Part shown: positions 1 through 44,319 of the stretch, piece after piece
Layout of the letters: each line of letters starts with the position of its first letter
How positions within the stretch are numbered: the stretch's first letter is position 1
Assembly: GCA_024645005.1 (NCBI GenBank)
Contig: JAHEGS010000004.1
Span: 1 to 44,319, forward strand
Direction of reading: 5' to 3'
Length of the DNA: 44,319 bases
Source: Bacteroidota bacterium
GTDB taxonomy: Bacteria > Bacteroidota > Bacteroidia > NS11-12g > UBA9320
Program-made: the position numbers and the translations under genes
The notes under the pieces: model-generated
Told to the model about the DNA's origin: nothing
Database searches by the model: none
The model's input: the letters and a program-made list of their open reading frames with translations, nothing else

Positions 1-2
1 AA

Positions 3-233
3 CTTGAAGATGCAGATGCACAAAGAGATGCGATGAGAAAAATGACTTGGTTTGCATTGTTTGGTATGTTACTATATCCAGCAATTATTTTGATTACTAC
101 TATTATGGGTCAAGATAAAGCCGCACAACTTATTAGTGATATCGCACCTACATATTTTGTCTCTATTTCTGTGTTGGTAGCAGCCTTCTTTGGCGCTGAT
201 GCTGTGAAAGGAAAACCATCAGCTAAGAAATAA
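3..233 (+). CDS. small membrane protein, 5' end cut by window edge
   Basis: The frame is already open at the first complete codon (position 3), and the residues before the first Met (LEDADAQRDA) look coded, so the true start is probably left of the window; the first internal ATG is at 33. Two hydrophobic segments are visible, one after MRKMTW (FALFGMLLYPAIILITTI) and one near the end (YFVSISVLVAAFFGADAV), followed by a lysine-rich tail. This suggests a two-pass inner-membrane protein with a charged C-terminus. Small two-pass proteins are common in T4-like phages, and holin-like roles are possible, but nothing here assigns a function. It precedes the glycan cassette by 27 bases. Confidence 0.65.
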   Translation, partial: LEDADAQRDAMRKMTWFALFGMLLYPAIILITTIMGQDKAAQLISDIAPTYFVSISVLVAAFFGADAVKGKPSAKK

Positions 234-260
234 TATACATAATTTTGTTATGGAGTTATT

Positions 261-1046
261 ATGAAAAGAATGATATACCAAGTCGCCGTGGGCGCCAAAT
301 CTAGATTATATGAACACTGCATTGAGTCATGTGCAAACTATTGTGAAGCCCATGGCATTGATCATATTGTTCAACGAATTCCAATCTTAAAAATCAAACC
401 TGATGTATTTGCTACAAATCGTAGTAAAGAGTCATATGAGAAACATGGCGGATTTCTTCCAATTTATGAGAAGGAAAACGCCTTTTCTTATTGGGACAAA
501 TACGACCAAATTGCAATCATTGATGCCGACATTTGGATTAGACCTGGTTCTAAAAATATTTTTGATGAGATCAAACCTGATGTTTGCTTTGCTGGTGTTA
601 TTGAAAAGCAGATGCCAATAACTGCAAAATACAAACAGAAGATCCATAGTTATTCACGTATGCAATATGGACCAATTAAATTAGATTGGAACTGGGATGA
701 TGCAGGAGGTGATTTCTTTAATATGGGTATGATGGTAATGAATAAGAGCATTACTAAATATCTGAATGGAGAAACACCAGAACAGTTTATTCGCCGACCA
801 GAATTTAAAGGCTTTGTTGATGGACTTGGTGGTTGGAAATGGTCAACTGATCAAACACTTTTAAATTACTGGCTAAAGAAATATAATATTCCAGTACAGC
901 ACTTGCATTCTGAATGGAATTCATTATATGGTGCTTTAAGAGATAATAGATATTATAAAGAAGCCCAATTTGTGCATTTCTTTTTAAAGGATCATTTACC
1001 AAATCGTGGTGAAAACGTAGAAGAATTAATGAAAGCAGTTCAATGA
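261..1046 (+). CDS. glycosyltransferase-like protein, DxD type
   Basis: A 261-residue protein with the layout of a GT-A fold transferase that uses a nucleotide sugar. A hydrophobic strand leads into IIDADIW, with the acidic DAD triad at about residues 88-90, the place for metal and sugar-nucleotide binding. Further on are FNMGMMVMN and a WSTDQTLLNYW segment, which resemble the acceptor-side motifs of GT8-like enzymes, and a late HFF. The start is fixed by GGAG about eight bases upstream of ATG 261. The gene overlaps the next one by four bases (ATGA), so it opens the cassette as a coupled operon. Donor and acceptor sugars cannot be told from the sequence. Family placement is by motif only. Confidence 0.72.
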   Translation: MKRMIYQVAVGAKSRLYEHCIESCANYCEAHGIDHIVQRIPILKIKPDVFATNRSKESYEKHGGFLPIYEKENAFSYWDKYDQIAIIDADIWIRPGSKNIFDEIKPDVCFAGVIEKQMPITAKYKQKIHSYSRMQYGPIKLDWNWDDAGGDFFNMGMMVMNKSITKYLNGETPEQFIRRPEFKGFVDGLGGWKWSTDQTLLNYWLKKYNIPVQHLHSEWNSLYGALRDNRYYKEAQFVHFFLKDHLPNRGENVEELMKAVQ

Positions 1047-2185
1047 AGATATTTGTTTTAGGTGGTGATGGGTTTTGTGGTTGGCCTACAGCTTTAAAAT
1101 TAGCTAAAGAAAACCATGAAGTATGGATTATTGATAACCTATCACGGCGCAGAATAGATGAAGAACTAGAAAGCAATTCACTTACAGATATTGAGCCTAT
1201 TGGTAAAAGAATTGCTACTGCTCGTAATTTAGGATGGGATATTAAATTTTGGAATATTGATATTGCTAAATCTTATGGGTATTTTGCAAAAGCAGTAAAC
1301 GAATTACAACCAGATGCCATTGTGCACTTTGCAGAACAAAGAGCAGCACCATATTCTATGCTCGGCCAAACCGAACGGCGATACACAGTTGATAATAATA
1401 TAACCACAACACATAATGTATTAAACGCAATTGTAGATCATTGTCCAAGTTGTCATCTAGTCCACTTAGGTACAATGGGTGTTTATGGATATTCAAAAGA
1501 AATGGGTTCTATCCCAGAAGGTTATTTGGATATTACTGTAAAAGAAACTGGCGAAGATGCAAGTATTTTATATCCTACAAATCCAGGTAGTGTATATCAC
1601 ATGACAAAGTCTATGGATCAATTATTATTTCAGTTTTATAATAAAAACTGGAACATTCATATTACAGACTTGCATCAAGGTATTGTTTGGGGAACTCAAA
1701 CTGAAGAAACATCTATGGATAAAACACTAGTTAATAGATTTGATTATGATGGAATTTATGGTACTGTTCTAAATAGATTTATTTCACAAGCAGCAACTGG
1801 AAAAAATCTAAGTGTTTATGGTACAGGTGGCCAAAAGAGAGCATTTATTCATATCCAAGATACTGCAAATTGTGTTAAATTAGCCATTGAAAATGTACCA
1901 GATAATAAAAAAGTTAGAATTTTAAATCAAGTTTCAGAAGTACGTTCAGTAAAAGAATTAGCAATGATTATATCAAATTCATATGGAACTCCTATTGAAT
2001 TTTTAGATAATCCAAGAAAAGAACTAGCAGAAAATGATCTTGCAGTTGATAATCAAGGGCTAAAAAGTTTAGGGTTTCAACCTATTACACTAACTGCAAA
2101 TCTGATAGACGATGTACGATATATTGCCACCGAAATGCATAAAAATTTAAAAGAAGAAAATATCCTTAATTCTCCAAAGTGGTAA
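1043..2185 (+). CDS. UDP-sulfoquinovose synthase-like protein (SQD1/SqdB family)
   Basis: A 380-residue extended short-chain dehydrogenase/reductase that matches the UDP-sulfoquinovose synthase family from end to end by eye. Known members make UDP-sulfoquinovose from UDP-glucose and sulfite with bound NAD. Visible features are the NAD-binding GGDGFCGW (Gly7, Gly10, Gly13), an EQRAAPYSM block near residues 98-106 (plant and cyanobacterial enzymes have EQRSAPYSM), LGTMGVYG with Thr144, YHMTK giving Tyr185 and Lys189 as the catalytic pair, and later DLHQGIVWG and VYGTGGQKRAFIHIQD. The length fits cyanobacterial SqdB (about 380). It overlaps the upstream transferase by four bases and is followed by more transferases, so its product probably feeds them. 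A related NDP-sugar epimerase activity cannot be excluded. Confidence 0.85.
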   Translation: MKIFVLGGDGFCGWPTALKLAKENHEVWIIDNLSRRRIDEELESNSLTDIEPIGKRIATARNLGWDIKFWNIDIAKSYGYFAKAVNELQPDAIVHFAEQRAAPYSMLGQTERRYTVDNNITTTHNVLNAIVDHCPSCHLVHLGTMGVYGYSKEMGSIPEGYLDITVKETGEDASILYPTNPGSVYHMTKSMDQLLFQFYNKNWNIHITDLHQGIVWGTQTEETSMDKTLVNRFDYDGIYGTVLNRFISQAATGKNLSVYGTGGQKRAFIHIQDTANCVKLAIENVPDNKKVRILNQVSEVRSVKELAMIISNSYGTPIEFLDNPRKELAENDLAVDNQGLKSLGFQPITLTANLIDDVRYIATEMHKNLKEENILNSPKW

Positions 2186-2189
2186 TATA

Positions 2190-2993
2190 ATGAAAACCAT
2201 AATTTATCAATATTGGGATGGAAACCCTACACCAGGTAATACTGCTGGTGTAGCAGCGATGGAAGAATATGCTAACAGAATAGGTGCTGAATATCTCTAT
2301 GAAGATAATCCAAGATGGAAAACAGATCTAGGTAAATATTCTCCTCATTATGGTGCTTTTAAACCACTCTTTACCGAATCGTTTTATAATTATGACTATG
2401 TGTTATTTGCTGATACAGATGTTTTCCCTGTAGCAAATTTAAATGAAAATATATTTGAACAGTTTTATAATACAGATATTGAATTAGGTATCTGTGAGGA
2501 ATGGCAGCAGCCTGAGGTTAGAAAAAAACATGACCTTGGTGGTATTAATAACGCCAACGATGAATATTGGGTTAAGTTAATAGAAAAAACATGGCCAGTT
2601 AAAATGCCTAGAACTGAAAATAAAGCACCTAGGGTATATAATTCTGGTGTGGTTGTATATTCAAATGCGGGTATGATAAAGGCTAGAGAAAATTTTATTG
2701 ATTTTAAAACATATGTGAATTTTATATCTAGCCATAGATTGCCACCATTCTATACGTGTGATCAGCCGTATCTACACGCTATGATACAGGCATGTAGATT
2801 TAAATGGAAAACAATGGACTATAAATGGAACAGTAGTGTACACTATGTACCAGGTACAAAAGATCCTAGACCTGTAAATGATTTAAGAAATAATCCAAAT
2901 TTTGTGCACATACAATTAAGAAATGCAGATAATTATAATAGTGATAAATTATATAGAATAACGAATTTACCGGTAAAGGAATGGAATTTATGA
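2190..2993 (+). CDS. glycosyltransferase-like protein, DTD type
   Basis: A 267-residue protein starting MKTIIYQYWDG, an opening it shares in form with the two transferases at 3565 and 4212 (MKN-L-hydrophobic-QH). A VLFADTDVFP segment places a DTD metal/nucleotide-sugar motif at residues 75-77. YNSGVVVYS and a CDQPYLHAMIQ segment follow, corresponding to acceptor and base regions of GT8-like or capsule-type transferases, with HIQLRN near the end. It starts four bases after the SQD1-like gene and its stop overlaps the next start as ATGA. A GT-A transferase is likely; the substrate is unknown. Confidence 0.7.
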   Translation: MKTIIYQYWDGNPTPGNTAGVAAMEEYANRIGAEYLYEDNPRWKTDLGKYSPHYGAFKPLFTESFYNYDYVLFADTDVFPVANLNENIFEQFYNTDIELGICEEWQQPEVRKKHDLGGINNANDEYWVKLIEKTWPVKMPRTENKAPRVYNSGVVVYSNAGMIKARENFIDFKTYVNFISSHRLPPFYTCDQPYLHAMIQACRFKWKTMDYKWNSSVHYVPGTKDPRPVNDLRNNPNFVHIQLRNADNYNSDKLYRITNLPVKEWNL

Positions 2994-3568
2994 GTAAAAT
3001 CTTTGATTACACATATGAAGAATATATAAAGGCACAAAAGAAACTTACAGATTTTAAGTTTGGCCGTATTGTATATGTAAAAAAAGACACTATAAGTGAA
3101 ATTTATAAACACTTTGCAAAAGATAATATTTTATCAATTTTATGCCATGGAACTAGATCAGGTGAAGAACAATCCCATTTTAAAAAATATTTTAACTGTT
3201 ATGTTATGGGGTCTGAATTATGTGAAAAAGCAACAGATACACCAGATACTACTATTTGGGATTTTAATAAAGTAAAAGAGGATTGGATTGGTAAATTTGA
3301 TTTAGTATACAGCAATGCCTTTGATCACTGTATTACACCAAGTGAAACAATTGGTGTTTGGCGAGATCAATTAAAGCCAGATGGTAGACTTCTTATTGAG
3401 TGGTCTGATTCACAGAATGGTAAAGGTGTTACAAATGGTGATCCACTAAATGCTACTGAAGAAGAAGTGACTGCATGGGCTGAAGAAAATGGTATGTTTT
3501 TAGAAGCAGAACTTATGAAAAAGAAATGTAAACACGCCGGTACTATTTTGGTTTATAAAAGAAAATGA
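2990..3568 (+). CDS. class I SAM methyltransferase-like protein
   Basis: A 192-residue protein with a Rossmann-type methyltransferase outline: ILSILCHGTRSGEE at about residues 47-60 (cofactor-binding loop), a following acidic MGSEL segment, FDLVYSNAFDH at about 103-113 and LKPDGRLLIEW at about 128-138, which is the typical post-motif strand. I chose ATG 2990 rather than 2981 because the purine-rich AAAGGA at 2975-2980 sits at workable distance only from 2990, and because this start gives an ATGA overlap with the upstream gene like the others in the cassette. It probably methylates a sugar or a modification intermediate. The cofactor loop is not fully canonical, so activity is not certain. Confidence 0.62.
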   Translation: MSKIFDYTYEEYIKAQKKLTDFKFGRIVYVKKDTISEIYKHFAKDNILSILCHGTRSGEEQSHFKKYFNCYVMGSELCEKATDTPDTTIWDFNKVKEDWIGKFDLVYSNAFDHCITPSETIGVWRDQLKPDGRLLIEWSDSQNGKGVTNGDPLNATEEEVTAWAEENGMFLEAELMKKKCKHAGTILVYKRK

Positions 3569-4215
3569 AAAATTTAATACTACAACATTGGAATGGTCCG
3601 TTACCTTTATGGGCAGAAAAGTGTAAAAAAAGCATTGAGGATTATGCCGAGTTAGTCGGTGCTGATTATCAATTATTATCCGGGTATCCTTTTATTACAC
3701 CACCAGATAAATTCGAAATAAAGCCATGGACTGTAATACAAAAAATTCATATGTTAAGTGAAGTGTATGACAGTTATGATGATGTTTTAATGCTAGATAT
3801 GGACATGATGGCGATAAGCCGGTTCCCTGTCGATAATATTTTTAATTATGAAGGTATAGGCCGTTTACATTTAAAATCAATGTCTGGCCTTAATAACAGT
3901 AGATCCAAATTATGGCCTAAACTATATAAGGAAGGTGCTCCTGCATTTTTCGGTAATTGTGTAAAATTAACAAAAAGAGAAAGAGTTATTTTAAGAAGTG
4001 CTTGTGATAAACAGGTAATTTTAGATGCATCCAATGAGGATTTACCACCTAATGATGAAGTTATTATGCACTATTTAATGCATAAAACAAAAGTATTATC
4101 TGATAAAAACACATTGGAATTACCACATGACCGTTTTTGTGATTTAGTAGAAGAAGCACACCCAGAAGCAACTATTATCCATTTTTGTGGACCTAGGAAA
4201 AATCATATCAAATGA
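3565..4215 (+). CDS. glycosyltransferase-like protein, DMD type
   Basis: A 216-residue protein beginning MKNLILQHWNG, with a VLMLDMDMM segment carrying the DMD acidic triad at residues 78-80. FFGNCVKLT, a PPNDEVIMHYLM segment and a terminal IIHFCGPRKNH follow; the last resembles the His-containing end of GT8-type folds. It is clearly a paralogue of the next gene: the first residues match in pattern and the acidic triad lies at the same position. It overlaps both neighbours by four bases. Donor and acceptor are unknown. The tandem paralogues suggest sequential addition of different sugars. Confidence 0.68.
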   Translation: MKNLILQHWNGPLPLWAEKCKKSIEDYAELVGADYQLLSGYPFITPPDKFEIKPWTVIQKIHMLSEVYDSYDDVLMLDMDMMAISRFPVDNIFNYEGIGRLHLKSMSGLNNSRSKLWPKLYKEGAPAFFGNCVKLTKRERVILRSACDKQVILDASNEDLPPNDEVIMHYLMHKTKVLSDKNTLELPHDRFCDLVEEAHPEATIIHFCGPRKNHIK

Positions 4216-4910
4216 AAAATTTAATCGTGCAACATTTTCATCCACAATACGAAAACGTGGGCAAACCTATGCCATGGATTGTGGAAAAAAGTACGGATAA
4301 TATTAAGCGATATGCAGAACAATTAGGCGCAGAATACAAACTATTGGATGGTGAACCATTCAGAAAAGATTTACGAGCACAATGTCAAAAGCTTTGTGTG
4401 TTAAATGAAGAATTTGATGAATACGATAATATCGCTGTATTCGATACAGATATGTTTTTAGTAAATGGCTGTAAGGAAAATATATTTGAAGCAAAGGGTA
4501 TTGGTACTCACCCAGAAGTTCACAAAACTAGAGTTATGGGAGATTTCCAAAGAGCATTTCCCAAACTGGCTAATCCTAATTATCCTATACTATCCGGATC
4601 TGCATATTCATTTCCAAAAGAATTTAGACAATTAATGCGTAAACAAATAAATTCAGGAATGGAATCAGTATTTAAATTAATAAGCCCTAAACCGTTTGTT
4701 GATGAGGGCATTTTACATGTACTAATGCAAAAGGCCAAATTTAAGCTAGACAATTACCTAGATGAAAAATGGTCATATAGTAGCTATTTGCCAGAGTTAA
4801 GTAAAGCATATATAATTCATGTGCGATATACACCATTTAAAAAAGGTGGGCCTATTGATAAAAGAGATGAGAATTGTAAAAAGTTGATGGATGAAGGAAT
4901 TATACAGTGA
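4212..4910 (+). CDS. glycosyltransferase-like protein, DTD type
   Basis: A 232-residue paralogue of the preceding gene. It begins MKNLIVQHFHP and has IAVFDTDMFL, with DTD at residues 78-80, exactly where the upstream paralogue has DMD. A YPILSGSAYSFPKE segment corresponds to the acceptor region, VDEGILHVLMQ to the segment after it, and AYIIHVRYTP to the late His strand. It is joined to its neighbours by an ATGA overlap at the front and a GTGA overlap at the end. A GT-A nucleotide-sugar transferase is the best reading; specificity cannot be judged. Confidence 0.68.
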   Translation: MKNLIVQHFHPQYENVGKPMPWIVEKSTDNIKRYAEQLGAEYKLLDGEPFRKDLRAQCQKLCVLNEEFDEYDNIAVFDTDMFLVNGCKENIFEAKGIGTHPEVHKTRVMGDFQRAFPKLANPNYPILSGSAYSFPKEFRQLMRKQINSGMESVFKLISPKPFVDEGILHVLMQKAKFKLDNYLDEKWSYSSYLPELSKAYIIHVRYTPFKKGGPIDKRDENCKKLMDEGIIQ

Positions 4911-5602
4911 AAGCCTATGTAATAACCTTAGATGATAATGTGCTTAGTCAAGATGGTGCTAATAATCTTATTACATCATCAAAAAAAGTAAAAAATGATT
5001 TTAACATTGAAATATTTGATGCTGTAACTTCAAAGATGGCCAATATTATTTTAATGGGAAATGGGCTAAAATGGAAATATCCTTGGGAAGGTCAAGAAAC
5101 AGATCTAAAAACCGGTTTAATTAAAACTGCATATCCAACACAGGTAAAGGAAAAAAGAATTGCCTGTGCCATGAGCCATTGGTTATTATGGAAAAAATGT
5201 GAATCATTAAATGAACCAATTTTAATATTAGAACACGATGCAATTTTTATTGAAAAATTAGATTATAAATCTATTTTAAAAAGTAATTTTAATATCATTG
5301 GAATTAATAGTCCTGCAGCTGCAACTCGTAAGGCACACCAGTTTCATGATATTGTGCAAAGTAAACCCGCCTGGATTCAACCAGTGCCAGATATTGATGA
5401 GTTTAATATCCCCCAAGGACTGGCTGGAAATTCTGCATATATAATTAAACCAGAAGGCGCTAAACTAATAATTGCAGCTAGTCATGAGCATGGTGTTTGG
5501 CCTAATGATGCTCTAATGTGTAAACAAATTATCCCCAACCTTGGTGTGACGAAAAAATACTTTACAAGAATCCAAGGGTTACCCTCAACAACAGTGAATT
5601 AA
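4907..5602 (+). CDS. glycosyltransferase family 25-like protein
   Basis: A 231-residue protein with the signature of GT25 (LPS/lipooligosaccharide galactosyltransferase-type) enzymes: an N-terminal MKAYVITLDD strand, IACAMSHWLLWKKC at about residues 85-98, then PILILEHDAIF with EHD at 109-111, and AGNSAYIIKPEGAKLI, a common C-terminal block in the family. WPNDALMC near the end may carry another conserved Asp. The start is GTG at 4907, overlapping the upstream stop as GTGA. Members of this family transfer hexoses in surface glycan synthesis; here the acceptor is unknown. A second GT25-like gene lies at 6171. Confidence 0.78.
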   Translation: MKAYVITLDDNVLSQDGANNLITSSKKVKNDFNIEIFDAVTSKMANIILMGNGLKWKYPWEGQETDLKTGLIKTAYPTQVKEKRIACAMSHWLLWKKCESLNEPILILEHDAIFIEKLDYKSILKSNFNIIGINSPAAATRKAHQFHDIVQSKPAWIQPVPDIDEFNIPQGLAGNSAYIIKPEGAKLIIAASHEHGVWPNDALMCKQIIPNLGVTKKYFTRIQGLPSTTVN

Positions 5603-5604
5603 AT

Positions 5605-6174
5605 ATGAAAAAATCAGTATTAAATCATGTAAAAACATTAAAACAATTTCACACAGAAATTTATAAACAGCAAGAAGAAAACCACAGAGAACACTATTGC
5701 GCAGTACATGATGCTATTGTAAAATATTGGAATTTAGGTAAGTGTCAATCATATATGGAATTAGGTGTTCATCAGGGCGGTACTGCATCAAATATTTTAT
5801 TACAAAAACCAAAAAAAGTAGTATTGGTTGATAAAAATTTAGATCTGTACAGAGAATATTTAGAACCAATTGCCATTCATTATTGTGATCAAAATGACAT
5901 TGATTTAAAAACAAAAGAGTGCGAGTCAATTGATCTATATGCAATGGAAGTAGAATGTGATATGCTTTTTATTGATAGTTATCATAAACCAGATTATATG
6001 ATCCAAGAGTTATCTACTCATGCACATAATACTAAGAAATATATAATAGCACATGATACATATTCTGTTAAATCATTGCACGAATGTTTAGAAAATTTTG
6101 CGATGAAAAATAAATGGGAAGTATTAGAATATAATAAAAAAAATGTGGGTTATACAGTATTGGGAAGAAAATGA
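5605..6174 (+). CDS. class I SAM methyltransferase-like protein
   Basis: A 189-residue protein resembling the Methyltransf_24/cephalosporin-hydroxylase-like group. It has YMELGVHQGGTAS at about residues 50-62 (glycine-rich cofactor loop), KVVLVDKN at 71-78 with the acidic ribose-contacting residue, DMLFIDSYHKPD at about 119-130 and YIIAHDTYS soon after. Members often methylate sugars or natural-product hydroxyls. It sits between the two GT25-like genes and overlaps the second by four bases, so O-methylation of the glycan is a natural guess, not shown by the sequence. Confidence 0.65.
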   Translation: MKKSVLNHVKTLKQFHTEIYKQQEENHREHYCAVHDAIVKYWNLGKCQSYMELGVHQGGTASNILLQKPKKVVLVDKNLDLYREYLEPIAIHYCDQNDIDLKTKECESIDLYAMEVECDMLFIDSYHKPDYMIQELSTHAHNTKKYIIAHDTYSVKSLHECLENFAMKNKWEVLEYNKKNVGYTVLGRK

Positions 6175-6821
6175 AAGCTTTTGTAATTACAATTATGGAC
6201 AATGAAAAATCTGTACAATCTGCAATGCGTTGTATGAAATCTGCAGAGAAATACGGATTGCATGTAGAACATCATATAGCGACAACCCCTAAAGATAAAC
6301 CTTGGGAAATTCTCCACAAAAAAGGTATTTCCCCTCACGGATTTGTTGAACGATATTCTAGATTAGAAAATTGCATGGCATGTTTTTTATCACACCATTC
6401 ACTATGGGAAATGTCTGTAAAACTTGATGAACCAATTGTAGTCTTTGAACATGACGCAATTGTTACTGGAGAAGTTCCGATCAATGAGAAGTTTGATGGA
6501 TGCATGACTTTTTCCAAACCTTCATACGGTAAATTTAATACACCAATGAAATTGGGAGTTGATGGATTAGTTCAAAAGCAATACTTCGGTGGCGCGCATG
6601 GATATATGATTAACCCAAAGGGTGCGAAAGAATTTATTAAAAAGGCAAAAATAGATGCATCGCCTACTGATGTATTCATTAATTTAAAGAATTTTAGTTG
6701 GTTGCAAGAGTATTATCCATGGTCTTGTATGGCAGTGGATACATTTACTACAATCCAAAAAGATGATGGATGTCAAGCTAAACATAATTATAAAGACGGA
6801 TATGAGATAATTGATGCATAA
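6171..6821 (+). CDS. glycosyltransferase family 25-like protein
   Basis: A 216-residue second GT25-like protein: MKAFVITIMDN at the N-terminus, CMACFLSHHSLWE at about residues 68-80, PIVVFEHDAIV with EHD at 93-95, and FGGAHGYMINPKGAKEFI, the conserved block seen also in the paralogue at 4907. A DVFINLKN segment may give the late Asp. Its stop (6819-6821) lies eight bases inside the next gene, so translation is coupled. Two different GT25-like enzymes in one operon imply two related but distinct linkages. Confidence 0.76.
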   Translation: MKAFVITIMDNEKSVQSAMRCMKSAEKYGLHVEHHIATTPKDKPWEILHKKGISPHGFVERYSRLENCMACFLSHHSLWEMSVKLDEPIVVFEHDAIVTGEVPINEKFDGCMTFSKPSYGKFNTPMKLGVDGLVQKQYFGGAHGYMINPKGAKEFIKKAKIDASPTDVFINLKNFSWLQEYYPWSCMAVDTFTTIQKDDGCQAKHNYKDGYEIIDA

Positions 6822-7491
6822 AATTATTGATGAATTGGTAATTACTGGTTGTGATTCTAAGACCGAATGGCAACTTCCTTGGTTTTTAGATAATTATTTA
6901 ACACACAACAAAACACCAATTTGTGTTGCTAATTTTGGTGTTTCAGAAGAAATTAGAAATTGGTTAGTGTCACACCCATTTATTCATTGTGTAATGGATT
7001 TAAAAGAAACAAGGGATATAAAGGCTTGGTTTTATAAACCAACTGCAATGTTACATTTACCTGCTAAAAAAGGTGTTTGGCTAGATACAGATTGTCAAGT
7101 ATTGGATAATATTAGTAAAATATTTAAACTTATTGAACAAGATAAGCTTTTAATGGCAGTTGATAAACCATGGCTAAAGCGCCGTGGTGAATTATGGCAC
7201 AATAGTGGAGTTGTTGGTTGGAGTGGACGACCAGAAATTTTAAATAAATGGATTGCTGCAATTAAAGAAAACCCTAGTGTCGGAGATCAGGAAGTTTTAC
7301 ACAGTATTCTAAATCCTATTACCATGATGAAATATATAAAAGAGTTACCAAACGAATATAATTGGTTACGATTACAAATTGAAAATGATGGTGAAGATAG
7401 CCCTAATAAAAAAATTGTACACTGGACCGGCGAAAAAGGTAATGATCGTATCAGGGGTATGATGAAAATAAAGGAGACAATTCGTGCCTAA
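6814..7491 (+). CDS. glycosyltransferase-like protein, DTD type
   Basis: A 225-residue protein with a GVWLDTDCQVL segment, DTD at about residues 91-93, then GELWHNSGVVGWSG, VGDQEVLHSIL and IVHWTGEKG. This order (DxD, N-S-G, D-Q-E, H-W) is that of GT8/GT32-like GT-A transferases. A TTG at 6811 is also in frame, but ATG 6814 is the normal start. It overlaps the upstream stop by eight bases and the downstream GTG start by eight bases. The substrate is unknown. Confidence 0.7.
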   Translation: MHKIIDELVITGCDSKTEWQLPWFLDNYLTHNKTPICVANFGVSEEIRNWLVSHPFIHCVMDLKETRDIKAWFYKPTAMLHLPAKKGVWLDTDCQVLDNISKIFKLIEQDKLLMAVDKPWLKRRGELWHNSGVVGWSGRPEILNKWIAAIKENPSVGDQEVLHSILNPITMMKYIKELPNEYNWLRLQIENDGEDSPNKKIVHWTGEKGNDRIRGMMKIKETIRA

Positions 7492-8176
7492 AACAGTACA
7501 CGTTGTTGGTAATGGTGATTCAGCTACATTTTTTAATGAAGCACCTCGTAGAGGGTTAAAACTAGCATGTAATTTGGCACCATTTCCTATTGAAAATTGT
7601 TACGCATCATGCATTGTTGATTTTAAAATGATGAAAACAATTCAGAGTGGAGTTGTGGATGTACCTGGTGAATGGGTACTAGGAGCAAGACCAAAGATTT
7701 TTATGGAAAAAAATCCTGGTTTTAGAATGCAAAGAGCACATCAAATTAAAACATTCTATACCAAACTCCCAAAGTATGCTTCTAATTATACAGATTTAAA
7801 TTGCGGACATATGGCAGTTTACTTTGCTGCTGAACACTTAAAGGCAGATGTAATTCATATGTATGGTTTTGATTCAATCTTTGATTTTAATCTTAGAAGC
7901 TATACAGATACCTTTATTAATTCTGATAGAGGTAATATGAATAATAATAGATTATCCACTAATTGGAGACCGCTGTGGATGAATATGTTTAAAGACTTTG
8001 ACGGATCTGGTAAAAACCAGAAAACAGAGTTTGTATTACATCATATGCATGATAATTTAAAATTTAATCCAGGTAATAATGTTATTATTGAAAAATACGG
8101 CCGTAGGGGCGAGATAAAGCCTCCAGCTGATAAAGTAAAAGGTAGTTGGCAGCCACCTGCAAATGGGATAATGTAA
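7484..8176 (+). CDS. GT42/DUF115-like protein, last gene of glycan cassette
   Basis: A 230-residue protein starting at GTG 7484 behind a good AAGGAGACA site. The N-terminal VHVVGNGDSATF (residues 5-16) looks like the nucleotide-binding loop of sialyltransferase-42 and DUF115/MAF-type proteins, which have a G-N-G-x-S pattern. CNLAP, and LNCGHMAVYFAAEHLKADV with IHMYGFDS at about residues 106-131, match the T-S-G-x-x-A and hydrophobic-x-G-x-D pattern of the same superfamily. The link is by motif only and distant. It ends the cassette; a promoter follows ten bases later. Confidence 0.5.
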   Translation: MPKTVHVVGNGDSATFFNEAPRRGLKLACNLAPFPIENCYASCIVDFKMMKTIQSGVVDVPGEWVLGARPKIFMEKNPGFRMQRAHQIKTFYTKLPKYASNYTDLNCGHMAVYFAAEHLKADVIHMYGFDSIFDFNLRSYTDTFINSDRGNMNNNRLSTNWRPLWMNMFKDFDGSGKNQKTEFVLHHMHDNLKFNPGNNVIIEKYGRRGEIKPPADKVKGSWQPPANGIM

Positions 8177-8185
8177 AAAAAACAC

Positions 8186-8214
8186 TTTACCTTTTCCAAC
8201 TTATGTATTATAAT
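8186..8214 (+). promoter_or_regulatory. sigma70-type promoter (class with ATGTATTATAATAAACAT)
   Basis: TTTACC at 8186-8191, a 17-base spacer and a perfect TATAAT at 8209-8214. The -10 region lies in an 18-base string, ATGTATTATAATAAACAT, that recurs exactly at the promoter before the ssDNA-binding gene (14866-14894). The start point should be near 8221, giving a very short leader before ATG 8234. Confidence 0.75.
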
Positions 8215-8233
8215 AAACATAATGGAGAATGAT

Positions 8234-8683
8234 ATGATCTTTGTAGAAGGTGGAAGTAAACGCCAAAGAGAACTTACTTATCAGGCTGCAGAGTTTGCGT
8301 GGATGCAATTAATGCCAAGAATAAAAAAATGTGTTATTAATATCGAACTTAAAAAATTAAAGGGTTATGACGGTACATGCTTAGATATTGGCCATAGAGA
8401 ATATCTAATGGAGATTGATAAAAAGCTTAGTCTTGGTGAGAATTTTTTAACCACAATCTTTCATGAGATGGTTCATGTTAAACAGTATGTGAGAAAAGAA
8501 CTTTTCAGTGATGTCAATTTTTATAGCACTAGGGAAGAATATTTAAATCTACCATGGGAAATAGAAGCCTATGAAATGCAGGAGGTATTATTAGAGTTAT
8601 GGAATTCAAAGATCACCAACAATCGGAAACAGAACTTTACAGGCGCGAAATCATTAATAGAGAAGGCCAAATCGAAATTCTAG
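8234..8683 (+). CDS. HEXXH metallopeptidase-like protein
   Basis: A 149-residue protein with a zinc-peptidase signature, FHEMVHVKQY: His77, Glu78 and His81 form HEXXH. Downstream LPWEIEAYEMQ supplies acidic residues (Glu109, Glu111) suitable as a third ligand; PWEIEA is typical of small phage and plasmid metallopeptidases. The start is ATG 8234, six bases after GGAG; ATG 8222 lies almost at the predicted transcript start and overlaps that ribosome site. The target is unknown. Its 3' end overlaps a second frame by 85 bases. Confidence 0.65.
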   Translation: MIFVEGGSKRQRELTYQAAEFAWMQLMPRIKKCVINIELKKLKGYDGTCLDIGHREYLMEIDKKLSLGENFLTTIFHEMVHVKQYVRKELFSDVNFYSTREEYLNLPWEIEAYEMQEVLLELWNSKITNNRKQNFTGAKSLIEKAKSKF

Positions 8684-9743: not shown

Positions 9744-9819
9744 GGTTCCGTAGCTCAGTGGATAGAGCAACAGCCTTCTAAGCTGTGGGTCGAGGGTTCG
9801 AATCCTTCCGGAATCGCCA
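9744..9819 (+). tRNA. tRNA-Arg (TCT)
   Basis: 76 bases with a full cloverleaf: acceptor GGTTCCG pairs with CGGAATC (one G-T), D-arm TAGCTCAGTGG, anticodon loop CTTCTAA giving TCT, T-arm with GGTTCGAATCC, discriminator G and encoded CCA at 9817-9819. TCT reads AGA/AGG, common codons in this AT-rich phage. Confidence 0.93.
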
Positions 9820-9823
9820 ATAT

Positions 9824-9899
9824 ACTCGGTTAGTTCAGCGGTTAGAACCACGTGCTCATAACGCGTTTGTCGGGGGTTCGAATCCCTCACCGAGTACCA
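9824..9899 (+). tRNA. tRNA with CAT anticodon (Met, or Ile if lysidine-modified)
   Basis: 76 bases; acceptor ACTCGGT pairs perfectly with ACCGAGT, anticodon loop CTCATAA gives CAT, T-loop GTTCGAATCC, CCA encoded at 9897-9899. The A1-U72 pair argues against an initiator of the bacterial type, which has a mismatch there. Elongator Met and Ile2 cannot be separated by reading alone. Confidence 0.9.
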
Positions 9900-9917
9900 A
9901 TTTAAAGAGAATCATAT

Positions 9918-10133
9918 ATGTTTAAAACCGATGGTGAAGTAATTAAAGAAGCCTCTATTGGAAATAATAAATATGAATTAAGAACGAATGGTATTTTTGT
10001 CTATTCTAAAAACTTAAAAAAGTGGAGTACTTATGCAAGAAGAAACCTTGATCGACACTGGATTAGAATTAAAACCACGAGCAAAAAGGCTGAGTCAATC
10101 GGAAACAGCAAGAATAAGAAGAAGGAAAAATAA
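9918..10133 (+). CDS. 71-residue basic protein, unknown
   Basis: Starts with ATG 9918 behind AAAGAGA, 18 bases after the tRNA pair. The N-terminal half (MFKTDGEVIKEASIGNNKY) looks like a small beta-rich domain with a YELRTNGIFVYS strand; the C-terminal part is Lys/Ser-rich and overlaps the next frame by 101 bases. Because the overlapped tail is low-complexity and the next frame has a good ribosome site, one of the two may end or begin differently in reality. No family is recognised. Confidence 0.5.
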   Translation: MFKTDGEVIKEASIGNNKYELRTNGIFVYSKNLKKWSTYARRNLDRHWIRIKTTSKKAESIGNSKNKKKEK

Positions 10134-10200
10134 AGTAATTGTTTCTGAAGTTCAAGAACGCAGATATGCTCGTAATAGACGAATACGAAAGAATAAATAA
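10033..10200 (+). CDS. 55-residue arginine-rich protein, unknown
   Basis: Begins at ATG 10033 behind GTGGAG at a spacing of five bases. After an acidic N-terminus (MQEETLIDTGLELKP) it becomes strongly basic (ARIRRRKNK, ERRYARNRRIRKNK), suggesting nucleic-acid or ribosome binding. It overlaps the preceding gene's 3' end in another frame by 101 bases. No family is recognised. The following 111 bases (10201-10311) hold no convincing gene. Confidence 0.55.
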   Translation: MQEETLIDTGLELKPRAKRLSQSETARIRRRKNKVIVSEVQERRYARNRRIRKNK

Positions 10201-10311
10201 CAGAATGGGTTGGTCGCCTAATAGACCCGATAGTCCTTAATGTTAGGGACGAAAACAAAGGAGAATGCATCCAGCGTTTATAAGTTGGCTCTGCTCAATT
10301 AGGGAGACTAT

Positions 10312-10455
10312 ATGTTAACTTGGTACGATTACGCAATGGTAGGTATTTTTTCATATACTATCAGTCAAGGATTAATATATAGTTTCCCATTTGCTCTTAT
10401 CGCATGGATTTGTTGGGTTCAATATATGTACCAAAGGAGAGATGGTCGTGTCTGA
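10312..10455 (+). CDS. 47-residue membrane protein
   Basis: ATG 10312 follows AGGGAGA at a good distance. The protein is hydrophobic over most of its length (AMVGIFSYTISQGLIYSFPF, then ALIAWICWVQYMY) and ends in a basic QRRDGRV tail, which fits a one- or two-pass inner-membrane peptide with a cytoplasmic C-terminus. Its 3' end overlaps the next gene by eight bases, and its AAGGAGAG codons supply that gene's ribosome site. Function unknown. Confidence 0.6.
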   Translation: MLTWYDYAMVGIFSYTISQGLIYSFPFALIAWICWVQYMYQRRDGRV

Positions 10456-10711
10456 TGATATGTTTGATTTCGGTTTTACTGCAGTAGATGAGTCTGAATT
10501 ACAGGCTGTACAAGATGCGCAAAAGGCTGCTGGTGATGTTTCGGTAGAAGCAAGAACAAGTCAAGATAAGTTAGATAAACTCTATAATGCTATTATACCT
10601 CTCCTCAACAATCTAAAGAAAAATCCCGAAAAAGAATATATCCTTTGGCCTAATCGTATAGATAAGGTGGAAAAGTTCGAAGAACACCTCCTCAAAATAT
10701 ACCGCTCCTAA
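10448..10711 (+). CDS. 87-residue conserved T4-like phage protein, unknown
   Basis: A soluble acidic protein: DDMFDFGFTAVDESELQ at the N-terminus, a helical centre, and LYNAIIPLLNNL followed by NPEKEYILWPNR and a VEKFEEHLLKIY end. I know this C-terminal pattern (LLNNLKxNPEKxYIxWPNR) from small unassigned proteins of marine T4-like phages. GTG 10448 is preferred: GGAG lies eight bases before it but only two bases before ATG 10442. Function unknown. Confidence 0.68.
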   Translation: MSDDMFDFGFTAVDESELQAVQDAQKAAGDVSVEARTSQDKLDKLYNAIIPLLNNLKKNPEKEYILWPNRIDKVEKFEEHLLKIYRS

Positions 10712-10754
10712 ACTTTTTTTAAACTATTTTACAAGTGTTTATTTTTATTACAAA

Positions 10755-10830
10755 AAATAATGCACTTTTTTGTTTACATTTGCCTAAAAATGGTTTATAA
10801 TATATTATAAAATCAAAAGAGGAGATATAA
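10755..10830 (+). promoter_or_regulatory. sigma70-type promoter, second copy of repeated module
   Basis: TTTACA at 10773-10778, 17-base spacer, TATAAT at 10796-10801. From the -35 through TATTATAAAATC it is identical to the 8879 promoter; the upstream box is degenerate (ATGCACTTTTTT). The leader ends in AAGAGGAGATATAA before ATG 10831. Confidence 0.8.
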
Positions 10831-11103
10831 ATGATTTTAAAAAATATTACAAAGTTGGAAAAAACCCTTTGGAAAGAAATTGTTGAATATGTAGGCGTTG
10901 ATAATGAAATGGCAGACTTTGTTGCTCAGGACCGTAATGATGTAATTACCTGTAAGGAACTTCTCCAGGCTGGCAAAATTACAGCTCTTCGCAATAAGGT
11001 TAACCATCTTGATACATTTATTCGCGATGGAGTTGTTCTTGCTCTAGCCAAAGACCTTGGCGATGAATGGGTTTCTAATGCACTTGGATATGAGGTACGC
11101 TAA
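10831..11103 (+). CDS. 90-residue protein, unknown
   Basis: First gene after the promoter at 10773, with a GAGGAG ribosome site seven bases upstream of ATG. It is a soluble helical protein: MILKNITKLEKTLWKEIVEYVG, then a Cys-containing middle (VITCKELLQ) and FIRDGVVLALAKDLGDEWV near the end. I recognise no family. The next gene begins directly after its stop. Strong promoter and ribosome site suggest abundant early or middle expression. Confidence 0.65.
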   Translation: MILKNITKLEKTLWKEIVEYVGVDNEMADFVAQDRNDVITCKELLQAGKITALRNKVNHLDTFIRDGVVLALAKDLGDEWVSNALGYEVR

Positions 11104-11400
11104 ATGACAAATATTGTAATTACTAAAAATTCTACTTATGATGAACGTATGGAAGCTATTCGCGATGCCGCGGATCGGTTTGCCAAAATTAAAGCAAGAC
11201 GCGCAAGACTTGCCGCAAGTGCAGCTCGTGTTCGTAAATATGTGGATGAGGAAGAAAAGCCTAAGCGGAAAAAGTTTGATGATATGATTTCCAAAATGGA
11301 TGAAAATTATAACCATTATCAAGATGCCCCACAATATGCGGAGAAATATTATGGCGATAAGATGCGCGATACTGTTGCTATGGATAACGATTGGAACTAG
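11104..11400 (+). CDS. 98-residue charged protein, unknown
   Basis: Starts at the ATG immediately after the upstream TAA. The centre is rich in Ala and Arg (RFAKIKARRARLAASAARVRKYV) and probably forms one long basic helix; a KPKRKKFDD segment and an acidic, Tyr-rich end (NHYQDAPQYAEKYYGD) follow. Nucleic-acid binding is possible. The last 50 bases overlap the signal-peptide gene at 11351. No family recognised. Confidence 0.62.
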   Translation: MTNIVITKNSTYDERMEAIRDAADRFAKIKARRARLAASAARVRKYVDEEEKPKRKKFDDMISKMDENYNHYQDAPQYAEKYYGDKMRDTVAMDNDWN

Positions 11401-11629
11401 TGCTCAGGCACAAGATTGTTTCTATCAACAAGAAACCCAGTATCAAAATGGTACTGCTATAAATTCAGTCACTAAATACGATTGTGAATCTCCACCAGAG
11501 GTGATAGTGATTGAAAAGCCAGTAAAGGCAAAACAAAGAACCTTTGGTGAATTTTTGTTTGGTGTTGAAGAAGAAAATAATGGTGTCAGTCATCTTTTCA
11601 GCACTTTGGTCAGTATAGGAGTTATGTAA
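11351..11629 (+). CDS. secreted small protein with signal peptide
   Basis: ATG 11351 lies eight bases after GGAG, and from here the protein opens with a textbook signal peptide, MAIRCAILLLWITIGTSAQA, with likely cleavage after AQA, before QDC. The frame is open further left but that part has no signal character. The mature part has two Cys and Tyr-rich beta segments, an EVIVIEKPVK strand and FGEFLFGVEEENNG. It is followed by a small hydrophobic protein and a lipoprotein, so these three probably act at the cell envelope. I recognise no family. Confidence 0.65.
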   Translation: MAIRCAILLLWITIGTSAQAQDCFYQQETQYQNGTAINSVTKYDCESPPEVIVIEKPVKAKQRTFGEFLFGVEEENNGVSHLFSTLVSIGVM

Positions 11630-11754
11630 TGATTAAGTTTGGTTTTGGTATGATTGCTGGTGGTGCACTGGTAATTTATAATCCAGAGGTATTGAATTGG
11701 TTTGTGTCCTCTGGTATGCGTGATAATATTGTATCTGTTCTACAAGGAGTTTAA
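11629..11754 (+). CDS. 41-residue hydrophobic protein
   Basis: Starts on the TAATG junction with the secreted protein gene and ends one base before the lipoprotein ATG. It begins MIKFGFGMIAGGALVIYN, one glycine-rich hydrophobic segment, and ends with an amphipathic part containing VLNWFVSSGM. It looks like a single-pass membrane peptide working with its envelope neighbours. The lipoprotein's AAGGAG site lies in its last codons. Function unknown. Confidence 0.6.
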   Translation: MIKFGFGMIAGGALVIYNPEVLNWFVSSGMRDNIVSVLQGV

Positions 11755-11755
11755 T

Positions 11756-12415
11756 ATGAAACGGTTAGCATTGATTCCCCTCGTTCTGGCAGTTTCTGCT
11801 TGTGATAAAACCCCACCAGAGACAGCAATGTCAAAACAGATGTATGAATATAAAAAGGCACAAGTCTCTGAACAGCTAGACACAATGCCTGAATGGTATA
11901 CGGCAATTCCGATAAAAGATGATGCTGTATATGCTGTTGGTACTGCACTAACCCCAGATATGCAATTGACAGTTGATATTGCCATTCTTTCGGCTAAGAC
12001 AACTTTGGCCGATAGAGCAAATAGTCGCCTTCGTTCACAATTAAAATTATTTAAAACTAAATTAGGTGTTGATGATTTTGATAGTGTTGTTCAAAATGAC
12101 TTTGAACAAGTAACTCGCAACATTATTGCAGATGCAGATGTTGCAGGTTATACAGTTAAGGAAACAAAACTTGTTCAAAACGGTACTCAATTCCGTGCAT
12201 ATGTTCTACTAGAATATAAAAATTCAGTAGCTAATCAAATGATTAAAACACGCCTTGCGAGTAATGAGCCACTTTATACTGAACTAAGAGCAGCAGTTGC
12301 ATTTAAGGAAATGGATACTGCCGTCGAAGCTCAAAAAAATAGTGAATTAAATGAGAAAAAAGCCATTATTGATCAAGTTATTGGTTTACAAACTCCAGAA
12401 AATGTAGTAGAATAA
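11756..12415 (+). CDS. LPP20-like lipoprotein
   Basis: A 219-residue lipoprotein: MKRLALIPLVLAVSAC gives a type II signal with a VSAC lipobox and lipidation at Cys16, placing it on the envelope. The mature part has PEWYTAIPIKDDAVYAVGTA, then a long Ala-rich helix (ILSAKTTLADRANSRL) and a YRA-type strand (FRAYVLLEYK); this W-x-x-x-x-P, VGxA, Ala-helix order is that of the LPP20 family. Start is ATG 11756, behind AAGGAG; earlier in-frame codons are in the upstream gene. Phage lipoproteins can alter host surfaces, for example in superinfection exclusion, but no role is shown here. Confidence 0.75.
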   Translation: MKRLALIPLVLAVSACDKTPPETAMSKQMYEYKKAQVSEQLDTMPEWYTAIPIKDDAVYAVGTALTPDMQLTVDIAILSAKTTLADRANSRLRSQLKLFKTKLGVDDFDSVVQNDFEQVTRNIIADADVAGYTVKETKLVQNGTQFRAYVLLEYKNSVANQMIKTRLASNEPLYTELRAAVAFKEMDTAVEAQKNSELNEKKAIIDQVIGLQTPENVVE

Positions 12416-12419
12416 TATA

Positions 12420-12587
12420 ATGGAAAATTTATCTAGTGATCGTATGATGGCAATCAGCGTTTTTGAAGGTGAATTAGAGCGGATGAAAAACATTAAAAAT
12501 GGCGAATATGATGATATCGATAAAATCATTAGGCAATATCTTCAAGAGCGTATTAATGAAATGACTCGAAAAGGATACAACAGATAA
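12420..12587 (+). CDS. 55-residue acidic protein, unknown
   Basis: A short frame starting five bases after the lipoprotein stop and ending on a TAATG junction with the next gene. It opens MENLSSDRMMAISVFEGELER, then has alternating charged residues and ends YLQERINEMTRKGYNR; a two-helix hairpin is likely. No strong ribosome site precedes the ATG, so it is probably coupled to the lipoprotein gene. I recognise no family. Confidence 0.55.
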   Translation: MENLSSDRMMAISVFEGELERMKNIKNGEYDDIDKIIRQYLQERINEMTRKGYNR

Positions 12588-12934
12588 TGACAATGCACCT
12601 CGTACGTGGTATGACTACACTATCAACACGCAAGCGAAAGTCACGTATTAAGACTGCAGCTGTGTTGGAAGAAGAACGCAAGACGGCTAAACTCCTCAAG
12701 TCTCTTGGGTATCAGAAAAATGCTAGTCGCTGGAAAGCTGACCTTCCAGATTATACCGTGTCCGAGACTGTGCCCACCAGCGACCTCATCATCAAGGTAG
12801 AAGGTAAGCGTAAAGCGAATCAGTATACTGGGGATGAGCTCGCTGGAATTGGCACCCTCCATAAATCAAATAGTGTTCCTATACGAAAGGATAGTAATGA
12901 TGCAAAAGAAATTGCTCGTATGCGTAGAGGTTAG
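12587..12934 (+). CDS. 115-residue basic protein conserved in marine T4-like phages
   Basis: The opening MTMHLVRGMTTLSTRKRKSR is a pattern I know from small unassigned proteins of marine T4-like phages (MHLV..MTT...KRK). The middle has WKADLPDYTVSE, the end RKDSNDAKEIARMRRG. It is strongly basic at both ends, suggesting RNA or DNA binding. The region 12600-12850 has noticeably higher GC than its neighbours. It overlaps the upstream stop by one base and is followed after 36 bases by a tRNA. Function unknown. Confidence 0.65.
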   Translation: MTMHLVRGMTTLSTRKRKSRIKTAAVLEEERKTAKLLKSLGYQKNASRWKADLPDYTVSETVPTSDLIIKVEGKRKANQYTGDELAGIGTLHKSNSVPIRKDSNDAKEIARMRRG

Positions 12935-12970
12935 TCTATTTTTAAGTGGATGTGATAGAGCTAGAAATTT

Positions 12971-13054
12971 GCCCGCGTGATGGAATGGTAGACATAACGG
13001 ACTTAAAATCCGTGGCCTTAAGGCGTGGGAGTTCGAATCTCCCCGTGGGTACCA
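12971..13054 (+). tRNA. tRNA-Leu (TAA)
   Basis: 84 bases with the long variable arm of class II tRNAs (GGCCTTAAGGC). Acceptor GCCCGCG pairs with CGTGGGT using two G-T pairs, the anticodon loop CTTAAAA gives TAA, T-arm has GTTCGAATC, discriminator A and CCA at 13052-13054. It reads TTA, very frequent in this phage. Confidence 0.93.
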
Positions 13055-42319: not shown

Positions 42320-42683
42320 ATTTTTTTATCGCTTTCATTAGAAAATATCTTTGAATTGAATTGTGTAAAAATGTGAATCTGCATTCCAATTTATAAACTG
42401 GTTCTGAAAATGTATATGAGTCTTCTATAACATATTTCACAAAGGGGTCATAAAAATCTATATGCTTAGATTTAAAACACACATGAGGATCATCATTAAA
42501 AAATCCATGACCTTCACAACTTCCAACAGTTTCAATACCTTGACTTATTAGGTAAAGTACATGGGGCCAAATCTTCTTTTCTATATTTATTTTAAATTCT
42601 GGATGTGTAACTGGTAAAGAATATCCTGTATATTCTTCGCCTATATGAGTAAAAGGCATAATTTTATTGTGCTGTTTTTCCAT
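42282..42683 (-). CDS. 133-residue protein with GSCEGHG motif, unknown
   Basis: The N-terminal half has ISQGIETVGSCEGHGFFNDD, then PHVCFKS. The S-C-E-G-H motif followed by a strand is known to me from small uncharacterised phage and bacterial proteins. Cys and His here could bind a metal or act in catalysis. The C-terminus is basic and helical (QRYFLMKAIKKYARMAN). It overlaps the radical SAM gene by 20 bases and the next gene by 38, so the operon is translationally coupled. Function unknown. Confidence 0.6.
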   Translation of the reverse strand: MEKQHNKIMPFTHIGEEYTGYSLPVTHPEFKINIEKKIWPHVLYLISQGIETVGSCEGHGFFNDDPHVCFKSKHIDFYDPFVKYVIEDSYTFSEPVYKLECRFTFLHNSIQRYFLMKAIKKYARMANQTGTIS

Positions 42684-43566
42684 AATAATCCAACAATCCT
42701 TTATATCCGTTACAAGAATTATTTAGGTCTTTTACATACCGATAATGCTCTGTTAAACAATTACCCAAATAGTTACATGATTTGCATATTGGGCTTAAAT
42801 TGGTTTTTTCATCATCAGCCCATTTTAAATATTCACTATAACTATCTAGTTCTAAAAAATACTCTTTATCATTTTTATCAAATTCTAAAACACCAAATTT
42901 ACCATTTGGAGTAATATAAACATGATCATCTGAAAAGGCATTATATTCATTTGATAAGGATTCTTTTATTTTAATTTCATTTATAAATTCAAATCTCTTT
43001 TTTATAGGAGAATCTAACCACTTAATTACAAAGTCTTCAAATTGTTTATGTGTCACATTATGTGCATTTGCTTGATTAATAGAGTATGGTTTTATCTCTA
43101 CAGATTGAATTGCTGAACACATATTTAATTCTGAGATCATACGATCAATATCCATATTAACTACTTCTGGTGATGCTAGTACTAATACAGCAATTGGTAC
43201 TGGAGACATAAGCATGTTCTGAAAAACTTTATCACTTTTTTCACGTGCAGTAAAATCATATGATACAGATAGATATACATCGTTATCAAAGAATCCTTCG
43301 TGTATCATAGACATATTCGTAATAATGTTAATTTCACCATTGTAAAATTTACGAATAGAATCCTTTAATCCATAGAAATAATTTTTCTTTAACGCACCTA
43401 TTTCACCACCATATAAATCGATATACTCAATTTTAGGTATTTGAGATAATAAATTTTCAAGTTTTGATAACTCTATCTTTTTCGTGTCATTTAGCTGCTC
43501 TTTCGTTAAATAACAAAAGTCACATTTAAAATTACAGAAATAAGATGGGTTAATACTGATTTTCAT
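42664..43566 (-). CDS. radical SAM/SPASM-like enzyme
   Basis: A 300-residue radical SAM protein: YFCNFKCDFCYL gives Cys11, Cys15 and Cys18 (C-x3-C-x2-C) for the 4Fe-4S cluster, and YIDLYGGEIG is the G-G-E SAM-binding motif. The C-terminal part has a compact Cys set, ICKSCNYLGNCLTEHYRY and NNSCNGYKGLL, like a SPASM/twitch domain that holds an auxiliary cluster. Such proteins often modify peptides. It overlaps the upstream radical SAM gene by 17 bases. No precursor peptide gene is visible, so the substrate may be a phage or host protein. Confidence 0.82.
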   Translation of the reverse strand: MKISINPSYFCNFKCDFCYLTKEQLNDTKKIELSKLENLLSQIPKIEYIDLYGGEIGALKKNYFYGLKDSIRKFYNGEINIITNMSMIHEGFFDNDVYLSVSYDFTAREKSDKVFQNMLMSPVPIAVLVLASPEVVNMDIDRMISELNMCSAIQSVEIKPYSINQANAHNVTHKQFEDFVIKWLDSPIKKRFEFINEIKIKESLSNEYNAFSDDHVYITPNGKFGVLEFDKNDKEYFLELDSYSEYLKWADDEKTNLSPICKSCNYLGNCLTEHYRYVKDLNNSCNGYKGLLDYYGKTAQ

Positions 43567-44319
43567 TAATGTATTCCGTAACTGCTATCTCTAATTTATT
43601 TGATTTAATAATATCTGGTGCTAGTTGTTTCATGTGATAACAGTGTTCTTCTACCATTCTATGTTGTTTCATATCCTTTATTGTCTTTTTACAACCATTA
43701 CAGATCTGAAACATAGGACAAGTATAACAGGCTTGTTTTAGACTATTTAAATTATATTCATTTGCTAACGGTGTAAAAAACTCACCAGCCATTTCTTTAT
43801 TAAAATCAATAGACATTTCCTTATCGTCACCAAAAGCACCACAGGAATAATAATCGCCCTCTGGTTGTATTGTCCTAATATGTGAATCACACCCTCTTGT
43901 TTGTGGGCATATCGTAGCTTCACCACGCAGTCTTTTCATCATCTGCTGTGTGTTATGTTCCCAATCAGCTAAACCTGCTTTCCAAATATCAATATATTTT
44001 TCATATATCTTTGAAAGTCTATATGGTTCACCCTGATCACCAGAAGCCATAGCATAATTTATTTTACAGACCACATTCATCCGTTTTGCTAATTCTACTG
44101 TCTGTATTACAGTATCTTCATTTTCTTCCGTAATGACAGCAATAAATGATGGTCTGTAACCACAATATTTTAATACGGCATTTGAACATTTCCAAAAATC
44201 TTCTTCTGTAAATACTGAGTAATCACCTTTTAATCTTCCGTTACCATATTGAAATGAAGTTGCAATACCTACTCTATGATGTGTAAAGACTTCCATCCAT
44301 TTATGTGGATTTTTATAGA
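43550..44319 (-). CDS. radical SAM/SPASM protein, N-terminal part outside window
   Basis: The frame runs open off the right edge (residues NPHKW before the first ATG at 44296), so the gene is 5' partial. The visible C-terminal 250 residues hold a SPASM-type Cys pattern: ICPQTRGCDSHIRTIQPEGDYYSCGAFGDD, ACYTCPMFQICNGCKKT, and a final Cys in EEHCYHMKQL. EGDYYSCGA plus CP-x-x-x-x-C-x-x-C is characteristic of anaerobic maturase-like radical SAM/SPASM enzymes. The N-terminal C-x3-C-x2-C should lie outside. It is the first visible gene of the operon. Confidence 0.8.
   Translation of the reverse strand, partial: YKNPHKWMEVFTHHRVGIATSFQYGNGRLKGDYSVFTEEDFWKCSNAVLKYCGYRPSFIAVITEENEDTVIQTVELAKRMNVVCKINYAMASGDQGEPYRLSKIYEKYIDIWKAGLADWEHNTQQMMKRLRGEATICPQTRGCDSHIRTIQPEGDYYSCGAFGDDKEMSIDFNKEMAGEFFTPLANEYNLNSLKQACYTCPMFQICNGCKKTIKDMKQHRMVEEHCYHMKQLAPDIIKSNKLEIAVTEYINENQY

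Follow-up and report, generated by a model that had tools for sequence, protein, structure and literature searches.

The closest described relatives of the protein considered here are UDP-sulfoquinovose synthases, for which the signature [ST]MG...YxxxK has been listed (PMC8987622). Agl3 of Sulfolobus acidocaldarius, which supplies UDP-sulfoquinovose for an N-glycan and not for a lipid, is proposed to act by oxidation, dehydration, enolisation and sulfite addition; His95, Arg101, Met145, Tyr182 and Lys186 are essential, an E147A variant is impaired, and the enzyme deprived of sulfite yields the 5,6-ene (PMC4388408). Two clades of SqdB have been described, the second comprising sequences from the cyanobacterial C1–C2 groups, alphaproteobacteria and red algae, with C1 including Prochlorococcus (Sato 2021, PMC8227023), in whose membranes SQDG is abundant (PMC9298688). 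Our literature search returned one viral precedent, a Mu-like virus from euxinic water at 900 m in the Cariaco Basin, for which the available text of the report gives a putative UDP-sulfoquinovose synthase and proposes a role in glycosylation (PMC7785012).

The window, that is the whole 44,319-nucleotide stretch of DNA analysed, contains an open reading frame at 1043–2185 (forward strand) which has an ATG start and runs for 380 residues with no internal stop. The top PDB sequence match of the product is Arabidopsis SQD1 (1qrr/1i24; residues 2–380, E = 5e-85, approximately 41% identity), followed by the UDP-glucuronic acid decarboxylase family at E = 9e-11. A Foldseek search with an AlphaFold2 model (mean pLDDT 80, pTM 0.85, weak at residues 146–150 and 162–182) likewise placed SQD1 structures (1QRR) first, with a TM score of 0.89 and 41% identity, and plain epimerases at 0.72 or below. 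The fold, NAD site, catalytic Thr/Tyr/Lys and His-Arg-Met residues are common to the phage protein, SQD1 and the cyanobacterial Glu-type SqdB. An earlier note on this DNA had claimed SQD1/SqdB motifs across the whole length with the catalytic residues in place, and this is borne out: GGDGFCGW (7–14), EQRAAPYSM (98–106), LGTMGVYG (142–149) and YHMTK (185–189) are all present, catalytic T144, Y185 and K189 are retained, and the listed signature is intact (T144-M145-G146, Y185, K189). Each of the residues essential in Agl3 is also matched (His95, Arg100, Met145, Tyr185 and Lys189), and in phylogenetic analysis the protein groups with SqdB-type enzymes and not with plain NDP-sugar epimerases.

The top NCBIfam model for the protein is NF041015 (UDP-sulfoquinovose synthase), at 349 bits compared to 56 bits for GalE, a score that lies under the curated cut-off of 575 bits. 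The SqdB proteins of cyanobacteria miss this cut-off too: in a set of 117 genomes taken from a cyanobacterial phylum, no score passes it and the top one is 483 bits. The cut-off does not cover bacterial SqdB and says little about the phage gene; we rejected the argument that a score below it disproves the identity of the enzyme, while counting the low score as a point against it.

The main departure from the characterised enzymes lies at position 147, which is Val in the phage protein (TMG-V-YG) but Glu in SQD1 and Agl3 (TMG-E-YG); lacking the Glu that corresponds to E147 of Agl3, the protein stands outside the SQD1/Agl3 Glu-type subgroup. In an 81-sequence alignment, Val147 is found in 69 of 69 rows of the phage protein's clade and Glu in 12 of 12 SQD1-type rows, with 27 columns diagnostic between the two sets, i.e. 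26 besides position 147. TMGVYG is present in all 80 of the nearest cellular relatives among the matches listed and in 61 viral relatives, a few diverged viral copies deviating at its Met or Val. The phage protein carries the marks of the second described clade (GGDGFCGW, TMGVYG, and grouping with cyanobacterial C1–C2/alphaproteobacterial SqdB; PMC8227023), and is of equal length to the cellular members, with 53–64% identity to them; it differs from them in being phage-borne, in having no SqdX partner, and in lying within a glycosyltransferase island. Assignment to the SqdB family is supported by the tree, the structure and the gene context; the earlier note had overlooked Val147, and the enzyme belongs to the second SqdB clade, not to that of SQD1 and Agl3. 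The cyanobacteria Nodosilinea and Tildeniella each have one Val-type and one Glu-type gene. One viral contig (L187) encodes a Glu-type SqdB (TMGEYG), unlike the phage group, and three genomes of the class of the metagenome-assembled genome (MAG) to which the contig is assigned (L245, L246 and L247) contain frames of 757–818 residues whose N-terminal part is an SqdB-like domain with GGDGYFGW; these seem to represent another branch of the family.

The genomic setting of Val-type genes in cells informs on their function. Within the cyanobacterial-phylum set (n = 117), a copy scoring 462–483 bits occurs in 41 genomes and one scoring 324–347 bits in eight, with both present in one. The 30 high-scoring copies examined are all of Glu type. 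Seven low-scoring copies have no Glu-type companion, and all seven read TMGVYG, in genomes which possess photosystem I genes. In three of these seven (two of 1.7–1.8 Mb, one of 2.8 Mb) the next same-strand gene is SqdX-like, with 62–74% identity to the SqdX-like gene beside the Leptothoe Val-type copy, which in turn is 68–76% identical to the gene adjoining many Glu-type sqdB. Among 67 bacterial loci, a SqdX-like glycosyltransferase lies within five genes of the Val-type gene in nine (Bacilli, an actinobacterium, alpha- and gammaproteobacteria, and a cyanobacterium), the sulfite producer CysH in six, alphaproteobacteria included, and the UDP-glucose producer GalU in five. On a viral contig (L194, 9348–10267), a Val-type SqdB-like gene starts at the base on which a CysH-like (APS/PAPS reductase) gene ends, which places a sulfite producer next to a sulfite user. 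Because Val-type proteins are the sole SqdB of small photosystem I-bearing cyanobacteria, in some directly before SqdX, and elsewhere occur near SqdX-like, CysH and GalU genes, the Val clade very probably comprises functional, putative UDP-sulfoquinovose synthases. Separately, in six alphaproteobacterial loci (L095, L111, L140, L148, L156 and L157) the Val-type sqdB is directly followed by a conserved protein of 487–570 residues and a GT2 synthase; these are candidate sulfonated exopolysaccharide clusters.

These settings bear directly on whether the phage Val147 enzymes have shifted to another UDP-sugar reaction, such as a sulfite-free 5,6-dehydration or 4-epimerisation, so that the glycan formed would be non-sulfonated. 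The impairment of Agl3 by E147A and its formation of the 5,6-ene when sulfite is withheld (PMC4388408), together with the 27 diagnostic columns, are consistent with such a shift, but the same Val is found in SqdB proteins that are the only copy in their cyanobacterial genomes, in some cases directly before SqdX, and beside CysH in alphaproteobacteria, and the [ST]MG...YxxxK signature is unbroken. We consequently rejected the proposition that Val147 alone denotes another reaction, and regard a changed reaction as unlikely; that the phage gene encodes a working UDP-sulfoquinovose synthase is likely.

The contig belongs to a T4-like myovirus: genes for the baseplate wedge, the hub and the tail-tube cap lie at 20–35 kb. 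The wedge protein is closest to that of Phage C48C1 (Kyanoviridae; 43%), followed by Methylophilales phages (33%). Given these structural genes, and with no comparable gene in the relatives of the MAG, the possibility that the gene belongs to the bacterium itself was rejected. The open reading frames near the sqdB-like gene lie on the same strand, and several of them share 4 nt with the next. The island opens at its 5′ edge with v8 (33–233), a short gene encoding a hydrophobic stretch (KD19 maximum 2.18) and found in 26 viral loci. It is followed by a DxD-type glycosyltransferase of the v1 family (261–1046), which has an invariant DxD and a weak GT8 match below the cut-off (E = 0.005), and which overlaps the start of the sqdB-like gene by 4 nt. 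Downstream, alignment with the v1 family identifies further DxD-type glycosyltransferases at 2190–2993 (which has no Pfam match), 3565–4215 and 4212–4910. Between the first two of these is a methyltransferase-like gene (v40; 2981–3568) with weak Methyltransf_31/11 matches below the cut-off (E = 0.014–0.024). Two GT25 glycosyltransferases (4907–5602, GTG start, PF01755 E = 1.4e-16; 6171–6821, PF01755 E = 2.1e-13) flank a probable methyltransferase (v41; 5605–6174), assigned by eye from its sequence pattern and having no Pfam match. The island continues with a GT8-like glycosyltransferase (v12; 6811–7491, TTG start), whose PF01501 match is at the cut-off (E = 2.7e-5), and the conserved protein v9 (7484–8176, GTG start; 24 viral loci, no Pfam match), and closes with v13 (8222–8683; 22 viral loci), which matches phrog_16532 (function unassigned in PHROG) but no Pfam family, and in which an HEMVH motif suggests a metallopeptidase. 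All of these genes are on the forward strand, and the earlier placement of the phage copy amid transferase genes is upheld. A T4-type late promoter was considered as driver of the operon and rejected, TATAAATA being not enriched and absent from 1–8683. Elsewhere in the window are three phage tRNA genes (Arg-TCT, Met-CAT and Leu-TAA; 9744–13054) and, on the reverse strand at 42664–44296, two tandem radical-SAM genes (phrog_1802) adjoining the tail fibre region; related islands likewise contain radical-SAM genes (v25, v83).

A search of IMG/VR yielded 75 viral loci with a relative of the sqdB-like gene; 53 rows, the window counted among them, share one island. Its frame is constant, with v8 and a DxD glycosyltransferase on one side of the gene and GT25-GT25-GT8-like-v9-v13 on the other, and UvsY-, PhoH- and RNase H-like genes (named by eye) lie upstream. 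DxD-type glycosyltransferases, in which D75 and D77 are invariant, are present in 53/53 island loci; in the 29 rows with at least eight downstream genes, GT25 is found in 28 and an FkbM-type methyltransferase in 13. A sulfotransferase co-occurs in six sqdB loci. Only four of 16 close relatives identified by v13 carry the sqdB-like gene; the same slot is occupied by a UDP-galactopyranose mutase gene in one related locus (L287:4427–5431), by a 449-residue HAD-nucleotidyltransferase fusion in another (L284), and by sulfotransferase-like genes in two more (L271:6532–7050 and L278:6568–7101). The slot is an interchangeable cassette of genes for nucleotide sugars and sulfation, consistent with selection for variable surface chemistry. 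The Cariaco Mu-like virus differs in this respect, as a T4-like island or cassette is not described in the available text of that report (PMC7785012).

In an infected cell the phage enzyme would take UDP-glucose and sulfite from the host; C4 would be oxidised by NAD+, loss of water would give the 5,6-ene, sulfite would add at C6, and reduction at C4 would then release UDP-sulfoquinovose. The adjacent cytoplasmic glycosyltransferases (four DxD-type, two GT25 and one GT8-like) would transfer sulfoquinovose into a glycan, which the methyltransferases may further modify, and, as the phage genes include no SqdX, no phage-made sulfolipid would be expected. The absence of a SqdX/SQD2 synthase noted earlier extends beyond this phage, there being no credible SqdX match in the window, which is part of a phage genome (best E = 0.36), or around the 75 viral loci. 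A glycan is favoured over sulfolipid because SqdX is absent and because, in the cassette, other genes concerned with sugars or sulfation can take the place of this one. Taken jointly, a phage enzyme making UDP-sulfoquinovose and its use by the phage's own glycosyltransferases for a sulfonated glycan appear to us the probable combination, somewhat less assured than the activity of the enzyme by itself. The proposed role resembles that of Agl3, although Agl3 is archaeal and Glu-type.

Alternatively, the product could feed host SQDG, with SqdX contributed by the host, replacing phospholipid while infection proceeds as the work of a phosphorus-saving auxiliary metabolic gene. Val-type genes are indeed found together with SqdX, both in cyanobacteria and in other bacterial groups, and Prochlorococcus has SQDG among its major lipids (PMC9298688). 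Against this, not only do the 75 viral neighbourhoods and the window lack SqdX, but glycosyltransferases surround the gene in 53/53 island loci, the slot exchanges with UDP-Gal mutase, sulfotransferase and nucleotidyltransferase genes and not with lipid genes, and neither the MAG nor its relatives (n = 57) have an SqdB match above 62 bits; we thus consider a lipid destination quite unlikely.

If a glycan is the destination, the most likely acceptor would be a virion protein, since the window island shows no transport or lipid-carrier function; its proteins from 261 to 8683 have no hydrophobic segment of membrane-span type. A glycan of the host surface comes second. Sulfoquinovose might instead decorate modified bases of the phage DNA. 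DNA glycosylation with phage-made sugars is known in T4-type phages, and a thymidylate-synthase-family gene is present in two of the four near-genome-length contigs of the group. It is missing from the other two, however, which makes DNA a less likely acceptor, and the glycosyltransferases and methyltransferases of the island exceed what base modification needs; moreover, to our knowledge, the known DNA glycosyltransferase types do not include GT25 or GT8. A DNA destination is accordingly very unlikely. Least credible of all is that the gene is a passenger, a recently captured host fragment with no phage function, as its presence in only four of 16 close relatives at the locus might suggest, since the reading frame is open and conserved across divergent phages and is under purifying selection (dN/dS 0.05–0.18). 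The sulfoquinovose gene presumably benefits the phage.

In a quick maximum-likelihood tree, the phage sequences form one group (SH-aLRT 99) nested in the Val clade and adjoining SAR116 and roseobacter sequences; with so distant an outgroup and many weakly supported forks, the finer branching order is unreliable. This position suggests that a lineage of marine T4-like phages acquired the gene from bacteria, probably alphaproteobacteria. Further viral lineages with the gene branch elsewhere, indicating that it was captured more than once. The phage group also holds a sequence from a Rhodobacteraceae MAG (L081) and one from Amylibacter kogurei (L080); the latter has 64% identity and represents a possible phage-to-host transfer or prophage. 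The MAG that includes the contig is Bacteroidota (46 Por_Secre_tail), which hints faintly at a Bacteroidota host; the link is unsafe because the MAG is 7.7% contaminated. The tetranucleotide correlation between contig and MAG (0.91–0.95) is at or under the low end of that among the MAG contigs (0.92–0.985), and the nearest cellular sqdB come from alphaproteobacteria. For sulfite supply the MAG offers only one weak match to the PAPS-reductase family.

The kind of enzyme is already known; as far as we searched, there is no description of a copy that recurs, under selection, within an exchangeable glycan cassette of phages, and the isolated-phage collection contained no relative of the sqdB-like protein above 27% identity. 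Tentatively, we propose that this cassette serves marine T4-like phages to cover the virion, or another phage product, with a sulfonated, methylated sulfoquinovose glycan. The Val-type clade, for which our literature search returned no biochemistry, merits such study, because the mechanistic work consulted here concerns Glu-type Agl3 and SQD1. If the proposal holds, viruses synthesise and present a sulfonated sugar that is known chiefly from sulfolipid and an archaeal N-glycan, and phages could use the swappable cassette to alter their surface charge and recognition. The proposal would also establish a sulfonated glycan on a virus, a new marine sulfite sink, and a concrete sulfur-using step in marine infection.
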